A model generated the notes under the pieces. That model saw nothing but the letters and a program-made list of their open reading frames with translations. It did no database searches and was not told where the DNA came from. A stretch of 9,234 bases of DNA from contig JACPGN010000057.1 in the NCBI GenBank assembly GCA_016182435.1, positions 1 through 9,234 on the forward strand, given 5' to 3'. Positions 2 through 9,234 of the stretch are shown here, piece by piece. Positions within the stretch are counted from its first letter, which is position 1. Every line of letters starts with the position of its first letter. A program made the translations under genes and the position numbers. Source of the DNA: Lentisphaerota bacterium. Its GTDB lineage: Bacteria > Verrucomicrobiota > Kiritimatiellia > JAAZAB01.

Positions 2-1696
2 CTCCTGCCTATCCGTGGAGATATCGAAGACCGTCTCGCCCAGCTTGATGCCGGGGCCTATGATCTGGCGCTGATGGCCGGCGCGGCCCTGCGGCGGCTC
101 GGCTTGGACGACCGGATTGCCGAGTGGATTCCATTGGCAGACCTGCTTCCGCCGGAAGGGCAGGGCGTCCTGGCGCTGACCTTCCGGGCCGGCGACCCTT
201 TTTTTCTGCGCTTGCGCAGCCTGTTCGTGAAGGCCGTGGCCTTTGTCGGCGCCGGAACAGGCGATGCGGCGGCGTGCACGCTCGCCGGGCTCAGCGCCAT
301 GCGCCGCTGCGAAGTGTGCCTCCACGATTCATTGCTGGATTCAGCGTTGCTGGAGGCGCTGCCCAATGGCGCGCGACGCTTTGATGTGGGCAAACGCTGC
401 GGACAACATGCCTTAAGCCAATCCGAAATCAGCGCCCTGATTGCAACGGAAACGCGCAAGGGCTATTCCGTTGTCCGGCTCAAGGGTGGGGACCCCGGCT
501 TGTTCGGCCGGTTAGCCGAAGAAATTGAAGAGCTCGATCGTCTGCATTTGCCTTACCGGGTTATCCCCGGCGTAAGCAGTCTCAATGCCGCAACCACCGG
601 AACGGGAATGCTGCTGACCCGGCGCGGCCTCTCGCGCGGGTTCTGTGTCTTGACACCGCGGCAGCAGGGGGGAACTTTCGGGCCGGTAACGGGCCAGGAG
701 CGCGCCAGGCTGCCGGTGGTTTTTTTCATGGCTGCCGGTGTGGTCAAGGAAGTCGCGCAGCAGTTGATCGGCGATGGCACGCCGCAGAATTGTCCGGCCG
801 CCATGGTGTTCAATGCCGGGAGCGATGATGAAACTGTTATCCGCGCTGAAATCGGCCGACTGGCCGCGGCGCTGGCTGGCCGCCAGGATGATCTGCCGGG
901 GGTGCTTATCGTTGGCGAGGTAACCGCTTTTGGTTTCCGGAAGGAAGCCGGCGCTTTTGCCGGCCGGCGTATTCTCCTGACCTGCAGCCGGGATCTTCAG
1001 GACAAGGCCGCCGACCAAGTCCATGACCTTGGCGGTGTGCCGGTCCGGCGTCCCCTGATCCGGCTCACGCCCAATCCGGAAGCGCTTGAATGTGTCCGCC
1101 ATATTGGACAATATGACTGGGTTGTCCTGACTTCGCCCGCGGCGGTTCGCTGTTTCAATGAGATAATGGAGCAATTGGGAACCGATGCGCGCGCGATCCC
1201 CAAACTCATGGCCGGCGGACCGGGCACGTCCGGGGAAATGCGGAAGTTCCGGCTCATGCCTGAGGCGGAACCGCCCGAGAATTTCGGCGCCGGCGGGCTG
1301 CGCCAGACGGCCGGGGATCTGATTAAGCGGGGCGATAAGGTCTTGCGCTTGAGGTCCGACAAGGCCGGCGGCGAGCTGGCCGAGGCCTTGAGCCGGATGG
1401 GCGGCGTGGTGGACGATTGCATCTTGTATCGGAACGAGGCTGTGACGTATGATGCGCTGCCGGAGTTCGATGCGGCATTTTTTGCCAGCGGCTCGGCGGT
1501 GGAGGCCTTTGATGAGCTGTGGGGCAAGGAGGCGCTCAAAGGCAAGACCATTCTGGCCATTGGCCAGCCGACCGTGGCGGTCCTGAAAGCGCATGGTCTT
1601 TCCGCGGACGTGATCGGTCCGGAACCGACCGTTGAAGCCAGCCTGGCGACGCTCGCCGGAAGGTATGTGCGTCAGGCCTTGGGAGACCTTTTATGA
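2..1696 (+). CDS. Fused HMB synthase (partial, domain 3 missing) - uroporphyrinogen-III methyltransferase - uroporphyrinogen-III synthase
   Basis: The frame is open from the window edge, so the N-terminus is missing; 564 residues are visible. Residues 1-75 match the end of domains 1-2 of hydroxymethylbilane synthase (HemC): LPIRGDIEDRLAQLDAG, LMAGAALRRLGLDDRI, then PPEGQGVLAL. The usual third domain, with the cofactor cysteine in a GGC context, is absent; after LRLRSLF the protein passes straight into the methyltransferase. Residues 76 to about 315 are SUMT/CobA-like (SAM-dependent methylation of uroporphyrinogen III at C2 and C7): VGAGTGD, DVGKRCGQH, VVRLKGGDPGLFGR, VIPGVSS. Residues from about 318 to the end resemble HemD, which closes and inverts ring D (GRRILLTCSRD, YDWVVLTSPAAV, AAFFASGSAVEAF, AIGQPTV). 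The protein would act in the cytosol on the common siroheme/heme/cobalamin trunk. The SUMT section begins at an in-frame GTG (227) that could be an old independent start, though no Shine-Dalgarno site is evident. The stop overlaps hemB (ATGA). CobA-HemD fusions are known; HemC joined without domain 3 is odd. Confidence 0.85.
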   Translation, partial: LLPIRGDIEDRLAQLDAGAYDLALMAGAALRRLGLDDRIAEWIPLADLLPPEGQGVLALTFRAGDPFFLRLRSLFVKAVAFVGAGTGDAAACTLAGLSAMRRCEVCLHDSLLDSALLEALPNGARRFDVGKRCGQHALSQSEISALIATETRKGYSVVRLKGGDPGLFGRLAEEIEELDRLHLPYRVIPGVSSLNAATTGTGMLLTRRGLSRGFCVLTPRQQGGTFGPVTGQERARLPVVFFMAAGVVKEVAQQLIGDGTPQNCPAAMVFNAGSDDETVIRAEIGRLAAALAGRQDDLPGVLIVGEVTAFGFRKEAGAFAGRRILLTCSRDLQDKAADQVHDLGGVPVRRPLIRLTPNPEALECVRHIGQYDWVVLTSPAAVRCFNEIMEQLGTDARAIPKLMAGGPGTSGEMRKFRLMPEAEPPENFGAGGLRQTAGDLIKRGDKVLRLRSDKAGGELAEALSRMGGVVDDCILYRNEAVTYDALPEFDAAFFASGSAVEAFDELWGKEALKGKTILAIGQPTVAVLKAHGLSADVIGPEPTVEASLATLAGRYVRQALGDLL

Positions 1697-2579
1697 ACGT
1701 ATTTCCCGAAGTCCGCCTGCGCCGGTTGCGGCGCACGAGGGCCTTGCGTCGGATGTTCGATGCGCCTTTGCCCGGCCCGGAGAAGTTCATCTGGCCGGTG
1801 TTTGTCGTGGAAGGAAATCGCCGCCGGGAACCGATTGAGGCCATGCCCGGGCAAAGCCGCCTGAGCGTGGATCTGCTCAAGGCCGAGCTTGACCGGGTCG
1901 TGCGCATGGGCATCGGCGGCATTCTGGTCTTCGGTGTTACGGAAGAAAAGGATAAGGACGCTACCGGCGAGGCCGCTTACCATGAGAACGGCGTGGTGCA
2001 ACAAGCGCTGCGCGCGCTGCGGCCGGCCTTTCCGGACCTGGTGATTTTTACCGACGTTTGTCTCTGCGCCTATACGCGGCATGGTCATTGCGGGCCTTTG
2101 ACGGCGTCCGGCGACGTGGATAATGACCAGGCCAATACGATCCTGGCGAAGGTCGCTCTCTCGCATGCATGAGCTATTCCTCGAAGTTCGCTTCGGCGCT
2201 TTACGGGCCCTTCCGCGAGGCGGAGAAATCGGCGCCGCAGAGCGGCGACCGGCGCGGCTACCAGGCACCCTACCGCGACTTGCGCCAAGCGCTCCGCGAA
2301 TCGCTCCTGGATGAAGCCGAAGGCGCCGATATTCTCATGGTTAAGCCCGCGCTCTTCTACTTGGATATTATCACGCGCCTGCGCTCCGCCAGCCACCTGC
2401 CCATTGCCGCTTACCATGTCAGCGGAGAGTATGCCATGCTCATTGCCTCCGCCGAGCGGGGTTGGGGCGACCTGCGTGAAATGGCGCGGGAAGCCACGGC
2501 GGCGATTATGCGCGCCGGCGCCGATCTCATCATTTCCTACTGGGCCAACCGCTACGACGAAATCTTCAAGGAGCTTTGA
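1693..2579 (+). pseudogene. hemB: Delta-aminolevulinic acid dehydratase (porphobilinogen synthase), disrupted by an internal deletion
   Basis: HemB condenses two 5-aminolevulinate molecules to porphobilinogen. The first frame (1693-2172, 159 aa) holds the N-terminal half: RRLRRTRALRRMF, WPVFVVEG, EAMPGQSRLS and the zinc-binding pattern DVCLCAYTRHGHCG (Cys123, Cys125, Cys133), so a zinc-type enzyme. It runs to GDVDND and ALSHA, then stops. The second frame (2169-2579, 136 aa) resumes at MSYSSKFASALYGPFREA and has both family active-site lysines (K6 and the Schiff-base K59 in MVKPALFYLD), then YHVSGEYAM to the end. Compared with E. coli HemB, about 34 residues between ALSHA and MSYS are missing, including the GAD-IAPS-MDG strand and its substrate-contacting residues, and the frame changes. 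The halves meet at GCATGCATGAGC, giving an ATGA stop/start overlap. The start has GGGAG seven bases upstream and overlaps the preceding stop. As written it should not make a normal enzyme. A deletion in the organism and an assembly error are both possible. Confidence 0.85.
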
Positions 2580-2586
2580 GCGGGGT

Positions 2587-3906
2587 ATGGATTCCCAAGC
2601 GTGGTTTGAGCGGGCGTGCCGGGTGATTCCGGGCGGGGTGAATAGTCCCGTCCGGGCCTTCAAATCGGTAGGCGGCCATCCCGTGTATATCGCCGGCGGC
2701 CAGGGCGCGCGGATGACCACGGTGGAAGGACGCGAACTGACCGATTTCTGCGGCTCATGGGGACCGCTCATCCTGGGCCATGCCCGGCAGGAAGTCATTG
2801 AGGCCGTCTGCCAGGCCGCGCGCCAGGGGACCAGTTTCGGCGCCAATACGCCCCGGGAGGTGGAATTCGCCGAATGCCTGTGTGAAATGGTTCCTTATTT
2901 GGAGATGGTTCGCTTAGTCAGTTCCGGCACGGAAGCGGTTATGACCGCAGTGCGCTTGGCGCGCGGCTTTACCGGGCGGAACAAAATCATCAAGTTTGAC
3001 GGCTGCTACCACGGCCATACGGATGCCATGCTGGTCGCCGCCGGCAGCGGTCTGCTAACGGGCGGGATTACCTCATCGGCCGGCGTGCAGTCGGCGGTGG
3101 CGGCCGATACCATCGTATTAGCCTATAATGATCTTAGCGCCGTGCGCGAAATTGCCGGCCGCTTGGGCAAGGACTTGGCGGCAATTATTGTCGAGCCAGT
3201 GGCGGCGAATATGGGGCTGGTCCTCCCGGCGCCGGGCTTTTTGCAGGGATTGCGCGAAGTCGCCAGCCGGAGCGGCGCGCTATTGGTTTTCGACGAAGTT
3301 ATCACCGGGTTCCGCTTCGGGGCTACGACCTATGGCGCTCTGTGCGGGGTCACGCCGGACTTGACCTGCCTGGGCAAGATTATTGGCGGCGGTTTGCCGA
3401 TCGGCGCCGTGGGCGGACGCAAAAAAATCATGGAGCTGCTGGCGCCGCTGGGTCCGGTTTATCAAGCCGGCACGCTGAGCGGCAACCCAGTGGCGGTCGC
3501 CGCCGGACAGGCCACGCTGCGGCTCTTGAAGAAAGAGAATCCTTATCCCGCTTTGGAACGGCTGGGGACCGAGCTTGCCGACGGCCTGAATGCAGCGGCC
3601 CGCGAGAAGGCTATGTCGCTGCAATGTATCCGCCTCGGCGGGGTCTTCACGCCTTTCTTCTGCTCCGCCGTGCCCACCGATCTGAGCGGCGTCAAGCAGT
3701 GTGATACAAAACAGTATGCCGCCTTCTTTCGCGGGATGCTGGCGCGCGGCTTTTATCTGGCGCCGTCCCAGTTCGAGGTCGGCTTCATCTCGGCGGCGCA
3801 TAGCGATGCTGATATTGAAGGCTATCTGGCAGCGGCTGATGAAACGCTGGGCGAAATGAGTTCGTGCCACAAAAGTGCCACAAAAGCAGTTGACAATGCA
3901 AAATAA
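2587..3906 (+). CDS. hemL: Glutamate-1-semialdehyde 2,1-aminomutase
   Basis: A PLP enzyme that converts glutamate-1-semialdehyde to 5-aminolevulinate, the last step of the C5 pathway, in the cytosol. The 439-residue product spans the whole family: IPGGVNSPVRAFKSVGG near the N-terminus, SSGTEAVMTAVRLAR, DGCYHGHTDAML, IVEPVAANMG, the PLP aspartate segment FDEVITGFRFG, and the cofactor lysine K264 in GKIIGGGLPIGAVGG, followed by AGTLSGNPVAVAAG. The ATG at 2587 fits the usual N-terminus (DSQAWFERACRVIPGG) and lies 7 bases after the hemB stop. The nearest strong Shine-Dalgarno match, AAGGAG at 2568-2573, is 13 bases away, so translation may partly depend on coupling with hemB. The last 15 or so residues (SSCHKSATKAVDNAK) go beyond the usual end; they are encoded by the tandem repeats at 3864-3885 and the promoter at 3890. 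Presence of HemL implies ALA synthesis from glutamyl-tRNA. Confidence 0.96.
   Translation: MDSQAWFERACRVIPGGVNSPVRAFKSVGGHPVYIAGGQGARMTTVEGRELTDFCGSWGPLILGHARQEVIEAVCQAARQGTSFGANTPREVEFAECLCEMVPYLEMVRLVSSGTEAVMTAVRLARGFTGRNKIIKFDGCYHGHTDAMLVAAGSGLLTGGITSSAGVQSAVAADTIVLAYNDLSAVREIAGRLGKDLAAIIVEPVAANMGLVLPAPGFLQGLREVASRSGALLVFDEVITGFRFGATTYGALCGVTPDLTCLGKIIGGGLPIGAVGGRKKIMELLAPLGPVYQAGTLSGNPVAVAAGQATLRLLKKENPYPALERLGTELADGLNAAAREKAMSLQCIRLGGVFTPFFCSAVPTDLSGVKQCDTKQYAAFFRGMLARGFYLAPSQFEVGFISAAHSDADIEGYLAAADETLGEMSSCHKSATKAVDNAK
3864..3885 (+). repeat. Two exact tandem copies of an 11-bp unit, GTGCCACAAAA
   Basis: GTGCCACAAAA occurs twice head to tail (3864-3874 and 3875-3885), inside the extra C-terminal codons of hemL. 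Four bases separate the second copy from the TTGACA at 3890. The one-turn spacing and position suggest a pair of regulator sites on the same DNA face, but no known regulator is recognised. Confidence 0.6.
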
Positions 3907-4136: not shown

Positions 4137-4166
4137 TTGACAATGATTATCATTTTCAGATAGGCT
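4137..4166 (+). promoter_or_regulatory. Promoter of the outer-membrane protein gene, overlapped by the Fur box
   Basis: TTGACA at 4137-4142 is a perfect -35. The -10 is poor: GATAGG at 4159-4164 or TAGGCT at 4161-4166, at spacings of 16 or 18. The Fur box lies between and over these elements, as expected for repression by blocking RNA polymerase. Transcription would give a leader of roughly 145 nt before the start codon. Confidence 0.45.
4139..4157 (+). promoter_or_regulatory. Fur box (ferric uptake regulator operator)
   Basis: GACAATGATTATCATTTTC agrees with the classical 19-bp Fur consensus GATAATGATWATCATTATC at 17 of 19 positions. The mismatches are symmetric and near the ends, and the core AATGATTATCATT is a perfect dyad. 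The site overlaps the -35 hexamer of the gene downstream. From established Fur biology, this predicts repression with iron and expression when iron is scarce. Confidence 0.8.
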
Positions 4167-4312
4167 CTCCGGCGAATGGGCAAAATCCGCCCCGGGGTTT
4201 GACCGTCCCAGCGGGAGAAAAGGCCCGGGAAAGGAGGCATAAAAGCAGGCATTCAGCCGAGGGGTCGGGAAGGCAGAACACGAGGTTTTCACTAAAAATG
4301 GAGGTAAAAAGC

Positions 4313-5026
4313 ATGAACGCGAAGCGGATTGCGACCATGATTCTTTGGGTCGGCCTGGCGGCCGGCGGTTATGCCGATCACCGCAGCTATGTCTGGACCT
4401 ACGAGTACCTGACCATGCCGGCGGGAACCGCGGAGGTGGAGTATTATTTTACGGCGAAAGTGCCCGATAGCAGCGTGAGCAAGGCCAGCACCTGGGAACA
4501 TTGGGGCGAGCTCGAATATGGGCTTACCGATAATTGGGACTTGAGCCTCTACCAGACCTGGAAACAGAGCTTCAGCACCAACGCCAGCAGCTTCAAATAT
4601 GAAGGCTTCAAGCTCCGCACGCGTTACAAGCTGTTCAAGAGCGGCGCGTTCCTGGTGGACCCCGTGCTTTACCTTGAATACATCCGCAAGGCCGGCCTGG
4701 AGCAGGCCAATGTGCTCGAGGGCAAGTTGATCGTGGCCAGGGATATCGGCAAGGTCAACCTGGCCTACAATGCGATTGTAAAGAGCGAGCTGGAGAGCGG
4801 CGGCGAAACCGAACACGAATACGCCGCCGGAATGAATTACGATCTTCCGGCGGGCCTGAGCGTCGGACTCGAATCCAAAGGGAATTATACGGAAAATAAA
4901 TATGCGCTGGGTCCGACTGTATCCGTGGAAACCGGCCCGTTCTGGGTTACCGCCGGCGCGGTTTTGGGCCTGAATGAGCGCACCGAGGATGTGCAGGCCC
5001 GCATGCTGGCGGGCTTTGGGTTCTAA
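4313..5026 (+). CDS. Putative outer-membrane beta-barrel protein of unknown function, Fur-controlled
   Basis: The 237-residue product begins with a signal peptide (MNAKRIATMILWVGLAAGGYA, cleavage probably after A21). The mature part starts DHRSYVWTYEYLTMPAGTAEVEYYFT. The rest alternates short polar/hydrophobic stretches rich in Tyr, Trp and Gly (LEYGLTDNWDLSLYQTW, FKLRTRYKLF, YLEYIRKAG, GKVNLAYNAIV), ending in GFGF with a terminal Phe, the usual beta-signal of barrels folded by BamA. The ATG at 4313 has GGAGG eight bases upstream; an in-frame ATG at 4298 overlaps that site and is less likely. It stands alone between the terminator at 4099 and the repeat region. The Fur box suggests a part in iron or siderophore/heme handling, or a protein shut down when iron is plentiful. 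I do not recognise the family function. It is not a TonB-dependent receptor: it is too short and has no plug domain. Confidence 0.75.
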   Translation: MNAKRIATMILWVGLAAGGYADHRSYVWTYEYLTMPAGTAEVEYYFTAKVPDSSVSKASTWEHWGELEYGLTDNWDLSLYQTWKQSFSTNASSFKYEGFKLRTRYKLFKSGAFLVDPVLYLEYIRKAGLEQANVLEGKLIVARDIGKVNLAYNAIVKSELESGGETEHEYAAGMNYDLPAGLSVGLESKGNYTENKYALGPTVSVETGPFWVTAGAVLGLNERTEDVQARMLAGFGF

Positions 5027-5352: not shown

Positions 5353-5655
5353 ATGCAACTCCCAATTGCAATCGCGGTCCTGGTAATGCTGGCGGCGCGT
5401 GCCTTAAGCCAGGAGACTAACGCGCCGCCAGCGGCGGCAGCCGACCGCAAGCCGCAGACCACCTGCCCGGTGATGGAAGGCAAGCGGATCGAGAAGATTT
5501 TTTACGTGGACTATGAGGGCTATCGCATTTACTTGTGCTGCAAACCCTGTGTAAAAGCGGCCAGGAAGAACCCGGAAAAGTACCTGAAAATATTGCAAGC
5601 GCAGGGTGTGACCCTGGAAAAAGCGCCGGAAAATACTGGAACCACTAAACGGTAG
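5353..5655 (+). CDS. Small exported YHS/TRASH-like metal-binding protein
   Basis: The 100-residue product has an N-terminal signal segment (MQLPIAIAVLVMLAARALSQ), then an Ala/Pro linker. The domain from residue 37 on reads CPVMEGK, FYVDYEGYRIYLCCKPC, NPEKYLK, with Cys38, Cys62, Cys63 and Cys66. A CP motif followed by Y-x-x-Y-x-G-x-x-x-Y-x-C-C-x-x-C and NP-x-K-Y(L/I) is typical of YHS and TRASH-like domains that bind copper or other soft metals, here outside the cytoplasm. GAGGAG at 5337-5342 gives a 10-base spacing to the ATG. It converges with the hicBA pair, whose last stop is 20 bases away on the other strand. The copper redox operon nearby on the minus strand makes a copper-related role plausible, but there is no shared transcription. 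Family-level call is good; the metal and the function are inferred. Confidence 0.8.
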   Translation: MQLPIAIAVLVMLAARALSQETNAPPAAAADRKPQTTCPVMEGKRIEKIFYVDYEGYRIYLCCKPCVKAARKNPEKYLKILQAQGVTLEKAPENTGTTKR

Positions 5656-5681
5656 AAAAAAGAATGCAGAGCAAACTACCG
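5650..5681. repeat. Inverted repeat spanning both convergent stop codons
   Basis: CGGTAG (5650-5655) and CTACCG (5676-5681) face each other over 20 bases. Each arm contains the TAG stop of one of the two converging genes (the YHS-type gene and hicA). An A-run/T-run lies in the loop. It might act as a weak shared transcription end; a 6-bp stem with a long loop is not strong evidence. Confidence 0.25.
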
Positions 5682-5903
5682 CTCCCGTAGATAGTCATCC
5701 ACCGAAAAACCGGCATCCTTCAAAATACGGATAGCCAAACCGCGTCCCATATCGCAACCTGTGTGCACTGGCACTGTGACCATGACCTTTCTATCAGAGT
5801 GATATAATGTCAGATGACTTCCTGACTGATGTTCTTCCGCAAAGCCCTGCGTTTTCAGAAAGCGGATCAATTCACGGGCTGTAACCTGCGGCATGCGCCC
5901 CAT
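5676..5903 (-). CDS. hicA: HicA family mRNA interferase toxin
   Basis: HicA is a small dsRNA-binding-fold ribonuclease that cuts mRNAs when not held by HicB. The 75-residue product shows the family pattern: VTARELIRFLKTQGF, then the catalytic histidine in QSGSH (H30), LTLYHSDRKVMVTVPVHTG, and AIRILKDAGFSVDDYL. The length is normal. Two starts are possible: the ATG at 5903, whose A is shared with the hicB stop (TAATG), or the ATG at 5894, three codons on, which gives the more usual MPQVT start. Either way translation is coupled to the upstream antitoxin. All parts needed for activity appear present, so the toxin looks functional. Confidence 0.92.
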   Translation of the reverse strand: MGRMPQVTARELIRFLKTQGFAEEHQSGSHLTLYHSDRKVMVTVPVHTGCDMGRGLAIRILKDAGFSVDDYLRER

Positions 5904-6139
5904 TAGCCCACCCCGATGGAAAGCTCTTCGACGTGCACAATCTGTTCTTTCTGCGGAATGGCCAGTGACCGTTCCCGCAAGGCCGCCACGTGCTGTTGAA
6001 TGGCAGAGCGGATGTTGCGGCGGGCGGATTCAATGGTTTTGCCGTTGCTGAAGCAGCCCGGCAAGGAGGGGCTATAAGCGCTGTACCCATTGCCGTCTGC
6101 TTCCTTCTCGATCACGATTTCAAAGTTAAAAAATTTCAT
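5903..6139 (-). CDS. hicB: HicB family antitoxin
   Basis: The 78-residue product has the partly degraded RNase H-like fold typical of HicB: FEIVIEKEADGNGYSAYSPSLPGCFSNGKTIESARRNIRSAIQQHV. It neutralises HicA by direct binding. The ATG at 6139 is chosen because GAGGA (complement of 6148-6152) sits eight bases upstream and the family normally begins M-K-x-F. An in-frame TTG at 6160 lacks such support. It lies upstream of the toxin, the reverse of the E. coli hicAB order but common elsewhere. It belongs to the short HicB class: there is no room for a C-terminal helix-turn-helix or ribbon-helix-helix domain, so self-repression by direct DNA binding is not obvious. Confidence 0.9.
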   Translation of the reverse strand: MKFFNFEIVIEKEADGNGYSAYSPSLPGCFSNGKTIESARRNIRSAIQQHVAALRERSLAIPQKEQIVHVEELSIGVG

Positions 6140-6182
6140 ACGCCGGATCCTCAATGGCAATTATGACCTGCATTTCTTTGAT

Positions 6183-6499: not shown

Positions 6500-6886
6500 C
6501 TACTGGACGATAAGCGTTCCGGTCATTTCCGGATGGCGGTCGGAGCACCAGACGGTGCACAGCCACGGGAAATGTCCGCGCTTATCGGGAGTGAAACTCA
6601 CGGTTTCCACGTGGCCGGCCTTGATCTCGCGGATGGCCACGTTAAATTCCGGCAGGGCAAAGCCGTGGCTGACGGTTTCGATGTTGCGCACGAGGATGCG
6701 GACCGGCTGGCCCTGCAAGACCGTAATGCTGCGCGGATACCAGTTGCCGTGTTCGGGCGCGCGGGCGATCAGCTCGACGGTATAGAGCTGCGCGCGGCGG
6801 TGATGCTCGAAGGCCAGTATGCCGGCCACCGTGCCGGCGGAAGCCAGGATAACCAGCGCAATAGCCAACCACTCGCTCTTATTCAT
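6500..6886 (-). CDS. Membrane-anchored CuA-type cupredoxin
   Basis: The 128-residue product has one N-terminal membrane segment (residues 5-25, WLAIALVILASAGTVAGILAF) and a periplasmic cupredoxin domain. The copper ligands match the CuA pattern of cytochrome c oxidase subunit II and N2O reductase: His74 in VSHGF, then C-x3-C-x3-H-x2-M as CTVWCSDRHPEM (Cys110, Cys114, His118, Met121). PEFNVAIREIKAGHVETVSFTPDKRGHFPWLC aligns well with the CuA domain of N2O reductase. It lacks the two-helix N-terminus of oxidase subunit II and the NosZ propeller, so it is a stand-alone electron carrier rather than a catalytic subunit. The ATG at 6886 has AGAGG (complement of 6897-6901) ten bases upstream; that site overlaps the stop of the preceding gene. 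It is the last gene of the copper operon. Confidence 0.85.
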   Translation of the reverse strand: MNKSEWLAIALVILASAGTVAGILAFEHHRRAQLYTVELIARAPEHGNWYPRSITVLQGQPVRILVRNIETVSHGFALPEFNVAIREIKAGHVETVSFTPDKRGHFPWLCTVWCSDRHPEMTGTLIVQ

Positions 6887-6899
6887 GGCTGAAAAGCCT

Positions 6900-8730
6900 C
6901 TAACCGACAAACAGTTTCAGAAAGAATACATGCGCCAGGACCAGGAAAATGACGATCGGTACCCAGCCACGCTTGGCCTGGTTCAGCGTAGGATAAGTCT
7001 GTTGCGCGAACTTGAACCCGAAATCGAGGGCAAAGGCCAGGCCAATCAGAATTATCAGGATCTGGAGATAAGGCATGCTGCCGGTCAGAAACGGGGTCCA
7101 GGGGAAGTTGGCGGTGCCGATCAGGTTCCAACCCCAGGCGAAAGGATCGGATAAAGCTGAAGGCGCCCCAGACGGCCAGGCCCACCGGGACCAGGCAATA
7201 GGAGAAATTGACAAAGACCTGTTTGAGGGGCACCTCTTTATTGCCGCTCAGTTTGCGCGAGAGCCAGGCGGCTGACAGCAGGGCCAGCGGAATGAGGGCA
7301 AAATCAATCAGCAGCGATTCCGCCACATAGGCCGCGTAACCGCCCGCGGTCTTGGCCGTGACCATGTCCTTAAGCGCGGCGGAAGGTCCCTGGAAGGCGG
7401 TAAAGAACAGCAGAAAAATGCCGATCATGGTCAGCGCTTTGAAAGCCTCATCGGTGCCGCGCCGGTGGTAGATGTCGTCGGTGCGGCGTCTCGGGGCCAG
7501 AAAATCCTGGCCAAAGGGCCTGAGAAAGAAATCCATATTGTCGTAAGGACAGGTCTTGAAGCACTCTAAGCACAACCCGCAGTAGGTATTGCGATTCATT
7601 TCAAAAGGCATTTCCATCCAGGGGCAGCCGTAGCCCTTTTCGTTGCCGATGAAACAGGTTTTCTGTTTATGGTTCTTGCAGACCTCCGGGTCGCGCGCGC
7701 GCACGGCAAACAGGGAAAAATTCGAATATAATCCCTGGAATCCGCTCACCGGGCAGACAAACAGACAGAACGAGCGTTTTTCAAAGATCAGGCCGATGAT
7801 AACCGCCAGCAGGATTACAATGCCCAGCAGCAGAAAAGTAGCCAGCGGCTTGACCGTGAAAAACGCCGAGAACCAGGTCGCGATCCAGAACAGGATAACC
7901 AGCGGCCACAAGTTCCGCCATTTGTTCGGCCAGCGTTTGGCCAGGCCCCATGATTTTTGCCGGCCCACGCTGGCGAGCCTCCCGCGCTGGATCCAGTCGC
8001 CAAAGAGCGGGAAAGGGCACACCATGCACCACAACCGGCCCACGATCGGCACCATAAAGAGCATCAGCAGCACCCACCAGAGGATCCAGACGATCATGAC
8101 GCCGAAGTTGTAATTGCCCGCGCTGATTCCGCCAACGACGGCCGCCATGAGAATGACTGTGAAAATGAAGAGGTTGATGATCAGGCCGATGAGCGGCATC
8201 CAGCGGCTCTTGAACACCGGCCGCAGCCAGGGGAATTTGGTCAAGAGCGGCAAGCGCCAGCTCAGCGGGATTAAGCCAAAGAGCTTGAATTCGCCGGCAC
8301 CTTGCCGCTGGCGCACGGCACAGAGCAACGCCAGCAATCCCATCAGGATGACCGCGGCCATTGACGCATAAAAATTCCGGTTGTGCTCTACGTAGAGGTA
8401 ACCAATCATGTAGGGATGCAGCGCCCCGCAGGTAACCGAGCAGCGGAAGGAGAATCGCCCGGGCTTATCCGCCACAAACTTGAGTTGGCCTTCCCGCCCC
8501 GGCAGCGCGGAAGTCTGGATGTCGTAGCCATCCAGGTACAGGCCGTGGTGCACATCCTCGCTGAGAAGCCGGATGCGGACGTTGTCGCCCTTGTTGACCT
8601 TGATGATGCTGGGCGTGTAGGAAAACTTCCGGGCCTTAAGTTCAATGAATTTCTCTTCGGCGCGGCCAAGGCAAAGGCCGGCAAGCCAAAGCGTGGAAGC
8701 AATTATTATTCTACTTGAGAAGTATTTCAA
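6900..8730 (-). CDS. CuA cupredoxin fused to a NosR/NapH-like 4Fe-4S membrane polyferredoxin (one frameshift)
   Basis: TTG at 8730 is chosen as start: GGAGAG (complement of 8737-8742) lies six bases upstream and a signal peptide follows (KYFSSRIIIASTLWLAGLCLGRA). Residues about 27-115 are a cupredoxin with CuA ligands: His62 in VHHGL, then CSVTCGALHPYM (Cys97, Cys101, His105, Met108). Membrane spans follow at about 121-139, 178-200, 208-230, 274-292 and 297-315. Fe-S motifs are LWCMVCP (Cys235, Cys238), FCLFVCP (Cys322, Cys326), Cys351, Cys359 and Cys369, and the ferredoxin pattern CGLCLECFKTCP (Cys384, Cys387, Cys390, Cys394). More hydrophobic segments complete the C-terminus. The frame breaks at AAA 7153-7155 (TTT on the coding strand). 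Removing one T joins GAFS to LSDPFAWGWNLIGTAN and gives 609 residues ending at 6900; as written, a nonsense tail runs past that stop. The likely role is electron transfer between Fe-S clusters and a periplasmic copper centre. NosR and NapH are the nearest known relatives by design, but neither has a CuA domain. The partner enzyme is unknown. Confidence 0.8.
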
Positions 8731-9234
8731 CGGGTGCTCTCCAGCAAGCTGCCAGTATCGGCGCAAAGTTGCTCAGGGGTCCAGGTGTTGGCAAAATACA
8801 TTTTGCGGATGTTGTTGTCCTGATCAACGAGAAAGGTTACCAGCGAATGGCGGATTGTGCGGTCAGCCTGCTGCTCGTGGATGATTTGATATTCACTGCA
8901 GAGTCGGTCAATGACCTCATTACTGCCGGTGAGAAAGTGCCAGTTGGTCCTCGGAACGCCGTAGAGCTCGCCATATTTCTTCAGCGCGCCCGGCGTGTCC
9001 AAAGCGGGGTCGAAGGTGATCATGAGGAAGACCACGTCTTTTTTTCGTGCTTCCGGCAATAAGGCTTGCGCCGCCATGAGCTTTTTCGTGGTCAGCGGGC
9101 ACTGGTCGGCCGCAGCGCAACAGACGTAGAAGAAACTGAGAAGCTTCACCTTGCCACGCAGGTCGCTGAGGCGTACGTCTTTGTTTTCCTGGTTAAGGAG
9201 CTCGAAATCGGGCGCCCTCTGAATTATGGGCAGA
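8727..9234 (-). CDS. SCO1/SenC/PrrC family copper chaperone (5' end outside window)
   Basis: 168 residues are visible; the frame is open at the window edge. The thioredoxin-like fold is clear: APDFELLNQENKDVRLSDLRGK, then KLLSFFYVCCAAADQCPLTT, FDPALDTPGALKKYGELYGV, and the copper histidine in IRHSLVTFLVDQDNNIRKMY (visible residue 129). SCO proteins deliver copper to, and reduce, the CuA cysteines of cytochrome c oxidase subunit II, and some act as thiol-disulfide exchange proteins. The copper cysteine pair here is Cys39-x5-Cys45 rather than the usual C-x3-CP; an extra cysteine (Cys38) precedes it. Its TGA stop overlaps the TTG start of the CuA-polyferredoxin gene (TTGA), so the two are probably translated together. 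This supports a job in loading the CuA sites of the two following genes. Confidence 0.9.
   Translation of the reverse strand, partial: LPIIQRAPDFELLNQENKDVRLSDLRGKVKLLSFFYVCCAAADQCPLTTKKLMAAQALLPEARKKDVVFLMITFDPALDTPGALKKYGELYGVPRTNWHFLTGSNEVIDRLCSEYQIIHEQQADRTIRHSLVTFLVDQDNNIRKMYFANTWTPEQLCADTGSLLESTR

Follow-up and report, generated by a model that had tools for sequence, protein, structure and literature searches.

Organization of the locus

The window, the whole 9,234-nucleotide stretch of DNA analyzed here, carries three tightly packed minus-strand genes at positions 6500–9234, as described in the initial annotation and borne out by open reading frames and Pfam matches. The first encodes a SCO1/SenC-type protein (8727..9233, minus strand) whose start is missing at the contig end; its match to SCO1-SenC (PF02630) scores 85.1 bits against a gathering threshold of 22.8. 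The second begins at a TTG codon at 8730, overlapping the SCO stop, and encodes a fusion protein with Pfam matches to COX2 (35 bits) and Fer4_5 (28 bits). Its N-terminal part is a cupredoxin domain, CuA1 (8380..8664, minus strand), periplasmic by inferred topology, and is followed by a membrane polyferredoxin part (first frame, 7156..8379, minus strand; PF12801, 28 bits). The third gene, CuA2 (6500..6886, minus strand), encodes a single membrane helix and a CuA cupredoxin (Cupredoxin_1, 34 bits), assigned from Pfam, NCBIfam, alignments, and a structural model.

The membrane gene is interrupted on the window contig. Comparison with L001, the locus of the closest relative found (a Lentisphaerae MAG, genome G001), yields three aligned stretches of 83–91% DNA identity in the polyferredoxin region and reveals 41 bp fewer in the window near position 7155, which shifts the frame. 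The rest of the protein, its C-terminal membrane part, lies in a second frame (6903..7160, minus strand) and matches residues 384–469 of the L009 protein. The motifs and domains first described for the fusion stand, but the length of 609 residues is that of a corrected reading rather than of an intact gene; the L001 homologue has 623 residues. HemB of the window is likewise split between frames, so assembly errors are possible. Because the operon of relatives continues upstream of SCO, the window probably holds only its 3' part. NxrA, the first gene in L001, has no match on the window contig, which ends inside SCO, and we infer that NxrA likewise opens the window's own operon.

Tetrapyrrole genes occupy positions 2..3906 on the plus strand: the end of HemC, a methylase, HemD, HemB, and a class-III aminotransferase with a profile match to Aminotran_3, which we take to be HemL. 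Heme and siroheme synthesis genes also adjoin the operon in L001 (14916–20723), and those of the window could provide heme for the gamma subunit described below. An exported-looking protein lies near both operons (window 4157–5026, where it has no Pfam or NCBIfam match; L001 13719–14447), and inspection by eye shows a similar one on L039 (2708–3523), an nxr contig. The window also encodes a small protein (5353–5655) whose YHS match falls short of the Pfam cut-off and a HicA/HicB toxin-antitoxin pair (5676–6160).

Two predicted CuA sites

The copper ligand motifs reported for both cupredoxins are present. CuA1 has H62 (codon 8545-8547) and C97-x3-C101-x3-H105-x2-M108 (codons 8440-8442, 8428-8430, 8416-8418, and 8407-8409), and CuA2 has H74 and C110-x3-C114-x3-H118-x2-M121. 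In an alignment of L001 with 108 of the 120 homologues listed, from which the window's own protein and 11 others (by length) were left out, H62, C97, and C101 are found in 109/109 rows and H105 in 108/109; M108 is kept in 95/109, with Glu in 11. All five ligands of CuA2 are kept throughout 23 aligned copies (22 in a second alignment), a set without L008, L020, and L025, which are cut by contig ends, and without L026–L028, which are of another type. Structure prediction, proposed as a check in the initial annotation, agrees: AlphaFold2 models of CuA1 from the L001 homologue and of the window's CuA2 (pLDDT 91.5) match solved CuA folds, the latter with an rmsd of 1.2–1.8 Å to NosZ CuA domains over 93–94 columns (Foldseek). 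By ligand set and modeled fold, CuA1 and CuA2 are thus predicted CuA cupredoxins. The two window proteins score 42.9 and 30.6 bits against the NCBIfam CoxB cut-off of 147.7, and both also fall below the cut-off of the NosZ model.

These domains share fold and ligands with the CuA domains of cytochrome oxidase subunit II and NosZ, but here CuA is detached from a catalytic oxidase or reductase. The earlier proposal that CuA sits on carriers is supported, as no catalytic oxidase subunit carries CuA at this locus; G001 has no match for heme-copper oxidase subunit I, the NosZ propeller, bd oxidase, or bc-type cytochrome b. A role in cytochrome oxidase assembly is unlikely for the closest relatives, COX1 being without a match in G001 and in 17/28 relatives' genomes overall. 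PmoD similarly has a CuA-type site outside an oxidase. It is a different protein from a different pathway, methane and ammonia oxidation (PMC6189053).

The usual copper motif of SCO proteins is Cys-x3-Cys. The motif here is instead Cys-x5-Cys, in the window as in L001, L006, and L013, with a conserved His. It is plausible that SCO loads copper into both CuA sites.

A NapH-like membrane polyferredoxin

The first frame of the polyferredoxin contains C235-x2-C238-P, C322-x3-C326-P, C351-x2-H354-x4-C359, C369-P, and C384-x2-C387-x2-C390-x3-C394. CxxCP, CxxxCP, and CxxCxxCxxxC are NapH/MauN-type motifs, and their presence in a membrane protein places the polyferredoxin with that type by motif. All 11 Fe-S-type cysteines are invariant in the same 109 rows (L001 and 108 homologues). 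Ferredoxin-type NapH and MauN have four cysteines per cluster, a pattern from which this protein departs: position 354 is His in 105/109 rows and Asp in the other 4, and never Cys, unlike in NapH-like rows. The equivalent residue is Cys in rows L050, L054, L026, L047, and L062, in an alignment that leaves out L033 and L045. The curated NapH model TIGR02163 gives 26.4 bits, below its cut-off of 213.

About ten membrane helices are predicted, and loop charges agree with Fe-S clusters inside and CuA outside. Fold searches with the membrane part returned CuA-domain matches only. The inner clusters and CuA have no predicted cofactor between them to carry electrons across the membrane, which counts against the relay proposed below. 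Four homologues (P0051, P0059, P0063, and P0105) have an AhpC/Redoxin-like domain ahead of the CuA-polyferredoxin, judged by eye to lack a cysteine pair in all four.

These features bear on whether the genes encode factors for copper handling or assembly, a SCO protein and two copper carriers serving some cuproenzyme without any relay. The SCO gene within the operon and the fused AhpC/Redoxin-like domains would fit such a role; however, 11 invariant Fe-S-type cysteines and some ten helices are needless for copper delivery, the fused domains are without the cysteine pair, and SCO is absent from 13 of the 16 operons described next. We regard this explanation as very unlikely.

An NXR-type molybdoenzyme adjoins the proposed relay in relatives

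A search of genome contigs identified 28 loci in relatives; the genomes are MAGs, so absences among them are weak evidence. The gene order NxrA-NxrB-TorD-gamma-(SCO)-CuA1-polyferredoxin-CuA2 is found in 16/28 loci, including L001, with L003, L004, and L008 cut at one end; SCO is present in three of the 16 (L001, L006, and L013). The initial annotation had envisaged a relay on carriers ending in CuA2 or a periplasmic copper/heme enzyme. The relay part holds, but in these 16 loci the partner encoded in cis is a molybdoenzyme of the NXR type, complete with a heme-b gamma subunit. The proposed survey of neighborhoods for nosZ, oxidases, and other copper enzymes likewise finds mainly NXR-type genes, with NosZ-type (L043, L047, and L062) and AioAB-type genes (L026–L028 and L045) elsewhere.

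Several lines of evidence support this enzyme assignment. First, the L009 NxrA matches Kuenenia NXR-A with 921 bits, compared with 206 for 4ydd, which we take to be perchlorate reductase, and 148 for E. coli NarG (1q16). Second, Asn70, Asp71, and Asp275, whose roles in NXR are given in PMC8387239, are kept in 27/27 rows; together with the full-length match they identify the relatives' proteins as NXR-A. Third, gamma has Met and Lys at the heme-ligand positions Met155/Lys305 of NXR-C in 25/25 rows, again with L033 and L045 left out. The L009 and L001 proteins also match the NCBIfam models for type II DMSO reductase alpha, beta, chaperone, and heme-b gamma subunits, all below cut-offs, and exceed the Pfam cut-offs for Molybdopterin, Fer4_11, Nitrate_red_del, and EB_dh. 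In G002, nqrDEF-like genes, menA, and a polyprenyl synthase gene lie directly ahead of nxrAB, head to tail (NqrD and NqrE below cut-offs), and siroheme decarboxylase-type and MoeA-type genes are found near the operon of L004. A second cluster downstream in L002, L012, L015, and L016 encodes a different molybdoenzyme with weak similarity to NxrB and, in some of these loci, to NxrA.

Linkage of the proposed relay to one NxrA subclade

NxrA is detected at E<=1e-60 in 23/28 genomes, in 22 of them with at least 1118 bits. Nine loci have neither an NXR operon nor AioAB; for six, NxrA is encoded elsewhere in the genome, and it was not found in the genomes of L012, L020, and L025. Some operons are cut by contig ends, and G002, G010, and G022 hold the other part at a contig end. 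In the Chloroflexi-type MAGs of L007 and L014, gamma lies with CuA1-polyferredoxin-CuA2, and NxrAB-TorD is on another stretch without a gamma match; the arrangement in L005 is similar, except that a further gamma accompanies NxrAB there. That gamma stays with the relay genes in L007 and L014 hints at contact between gamma and CuA.

Among 384 Omnitrophota genomes, 12 have the polyferredoxin (at least 389 bits), 12 have NxrA (at least 1300 bits), and 10 have both (p=2.5e-16). Without the nine genomes found through the polyferredoxin, the counts among 375 are three, four, and two (p=2.6e-4). In G253 and G012, which have the polyferredoxin without an NxrA match, the stretch starts mid-operon at a contig end; G149 has NxrA only, its stretch ending in TorD, and G040 has a different neighborhood. 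NxrA is common and the polyferredoxin rare in two other phyla. In that of G018 (labelled Planctomycetes), NxrA is present in 63/260 genomes and a polyferredoxin above 600 bits in one; in that of G023 (labelled Acidobacteriota), the counts are 36/262 and two, one of the two being G782, which has no NxrA match. At 300–420 bits, the polyferredoxin is found in three more genomes of the former phylum and six more of the latter. The relay is thus a trait of one NxrA subclade and not of NXR-type enzymes generally.

Kuenenia-type NXR was considered as a partner and rejected: 16/384 Omnitrophota genomes have an NxrA of 758–993 bits, and 0/16 have a polyferredoxin above 300 bits, a contrast that alone is not significant (p=1), with only L029 and L030 of the 16 on the tree. 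No CuA or polyferredoxin match is present in the stretches examined of L029, L030, and L059. The NxrA tree, built from the first 430 residues of 27 rows, with 10 of 24 inner forks open and a midpoint root for drawing only, groups Kuenenia with L029, L030, and L041 (100/100 support) and places the relay-bearing NxrA in the other clade. L031 and L036 lack an adjacent polyferredoxin, yet also fall outside the Kuenenia clade, so the relay is an imperfect marker of that side of the tree.

Other electron interfaces and partners

NXR-type enzymes are found with three electron interfaces: the CuA-polyferredoxin, a b6-type cytochrome set, and that of the Kuenenia-side loci. The b6-type set lies beside an NxrA of 57–60% identity in L036, L056, and L057, and by eye in L058; these four loci combine Rieske-like and multiheme c-type sequences, recognized by eye, with cytochrome b. 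In L029 and L030, a c-type heme motif adjoins a gamma-like sequence (by eye).

Related modules also adjoin other enzymes. L026–L028 (labelled Planctomycetes) contain AioA/AioB-type genes, a ferritin-like gene, and a CuA-SCO fusion; AioAB of L026 exceeds the NCBIfam cut-offs, and L027 and L028 are assigned by likeness to L026. Polyferredoxin relatives of 230–250 bits have NapA-like neighbors in both L050 and L054, joined in L050 by a NapG-like gene; none of these reaches its curated cut-off. NosZ-type genes lie beside polyferredoxin modules in L043 (500 bits, below the cut-off of 625), L047 (871 bits), and L062 (873 bits). The module of G782, which includes gamma, adjoins a NosZ-like gene, and G673 and G701 have a lower-band NxrA, but their polyferredoxin adjoins NosZ.

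It could be argued from the three NosZ-type neighborhoods, and from the Foldseek ranking of NosZ CuA domains as closest to CuA2, that the true client of the module is a copper enzyme, for example nitrous oxide reductase, with the NXR genes as mere neighbors. The NosZ propeller is nevertheless detected in only 2/28 genomes, and not in the closest relative, against NxrA in 23/28, which makes this the least probable of the explanations considered. A NosZ accessory function is accordingly unlikely as the main role and is kept for some relatives.

A putative CuA outlet for a quinol dehydrogenase

The operon probably encodes a periplasmic NXR-type molybdoenzyme with a dedicated NapH-like/CuA membrane relay, in which electrons would flow mostly from quinol to nitrate. 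This reading draws on the enzyme family, its co-occurrence with the polyferredoxin, and the order of genes in relatives, as well as on the conserved ligands and the CuA folds; that most NXR-type enzymes lack a CuA relay counts against it. The ten-helix protein would hold its Fe-S clusters on the cytoplasmic side and CuA1 on the periplasmic side. Menaquinol may be oxidized by the NapH-like Fe-S clusters, which would pass electrons to CuA1 and then to membrane-anchored CuA2 and/or heme b of gamma. From heme b, electrons would reach the beta-subunit Fe-S clusters, the Mo site, and nitrate. SCO may load the copper.

The relay would serve nitrate respiration in most carriers, even though enzymes of this family can run both ways. 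This direction is favored because COX1, bd, and bc cytochrome b are all without a match in 14/28 genomes (MAGs, 12 of which have NxrA), because of the nqr and menA genes of G002, and because the NosZ and NapA-like partners are reductases. Two papers report that NXR reduced nitrate in vitro (PMC8387239) and that Nitrospira NXR reduces nitrate (PMC12342949). Counting against nitrate respiration, NrfA exceeds its cut-off in only 5/28 genomes.

Electrons might instead run in reverse, with the NXR-type enzyme oxidizing nitrite and the electrons leaving by way of heme b and CuA for an acceptor, either the polyferredoxin or some other. The active-site residues equal those of a working nitrite oxidoreductase, PMC8387239 describes NXR as reversible, and heme-copper oxidase family matches occur in 11/28 genomes. 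Set against this are the 15/28 genomes with neither heme-copper nor bd oxidase matches and the nqr-like and menaquinone genes adjoining nxr in G002. Electron transfer from nitrite into quinone is, moreover, strongly uphill, and reverse flow is unlikely.

NapGH is the quinol dehydrogenase of the periplasmic nitrate reductase. NapH is, like the present protein, a membrane polyferredoxin with CxxCP, CxxxCP, and CxxCxxCxxxC, but here a CuA domain takes the place of NapG and one cluster position is His/Asp. NosR is likewise a membrane Fe-S protein feeding a periplasmic reductase, and differs in having a periplasmic FMN domain instead of CuA. Most likely, the relay is a quinol dehydrogenase of the NapH/NosR kind that has CuA as its outlet and would wire an NXR-type enzyme to the respiratory chain. 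According to PMC3578206, the NXR clusters of Nitrospina, Nitrospira, and Kuenenia resemble these operons in having NxrABC, TorD, and two cupredoxin-like proteins, for which a copper route is suggested; they differ in having cytochromes c and a bd-like oxidase protein where a CuA-polyferredoxin is present here. No description of the CuA-polyferredoxin wiring was found among the open-licence PMC papers listed.

The organisms that carry these genes are uncultured and live in groundwater and sediment. Nearly all of the nitrate formed in nature is the work of NXR (PMC8387239). Little is known of how electrons pass between NXR and the membrane, and NXR-like genes of MAGs can be mistaken for nitrifier markers; with a dedicated CuA/Fe-S relay as the mark of one NXR subclade, NXR enzymes that probably act as nitrate reductases would be recognizable at the gene level. 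Such a relay would, in addition, present CuA as a carrier of general use, beyond its part in oxidases. On a broader proposal we are evenly divided: CuA, fused or coupled to a NapH-like polyferredoxin, may have evolved into an exchangeable quinone interface for periplasmic enzymes, among them NXR-type enzymes, NosZ, and AioAB. Many uncultured lineages in which no terminal oxidase is detected would then respire nitrate through an NXR-type enzyme, with CuA acting as a stand-alone carrier and the Fe-S cluster with the His ligand being set to a high potential.

Further copies of the module occur in other settings. L055 and L033 have a second CuA1-polyferredoxin-CuA2 cluster without an NxrA or AioA match, in L055 on the same contig as the NXR operon, and the L055 cluster also encodes a PilJ-type sensor domain, the L033 cluster a CcsB-type protein of cytochrome c maturation. 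In L049, a related module lies near an MtrB/PioB-type porin gene.
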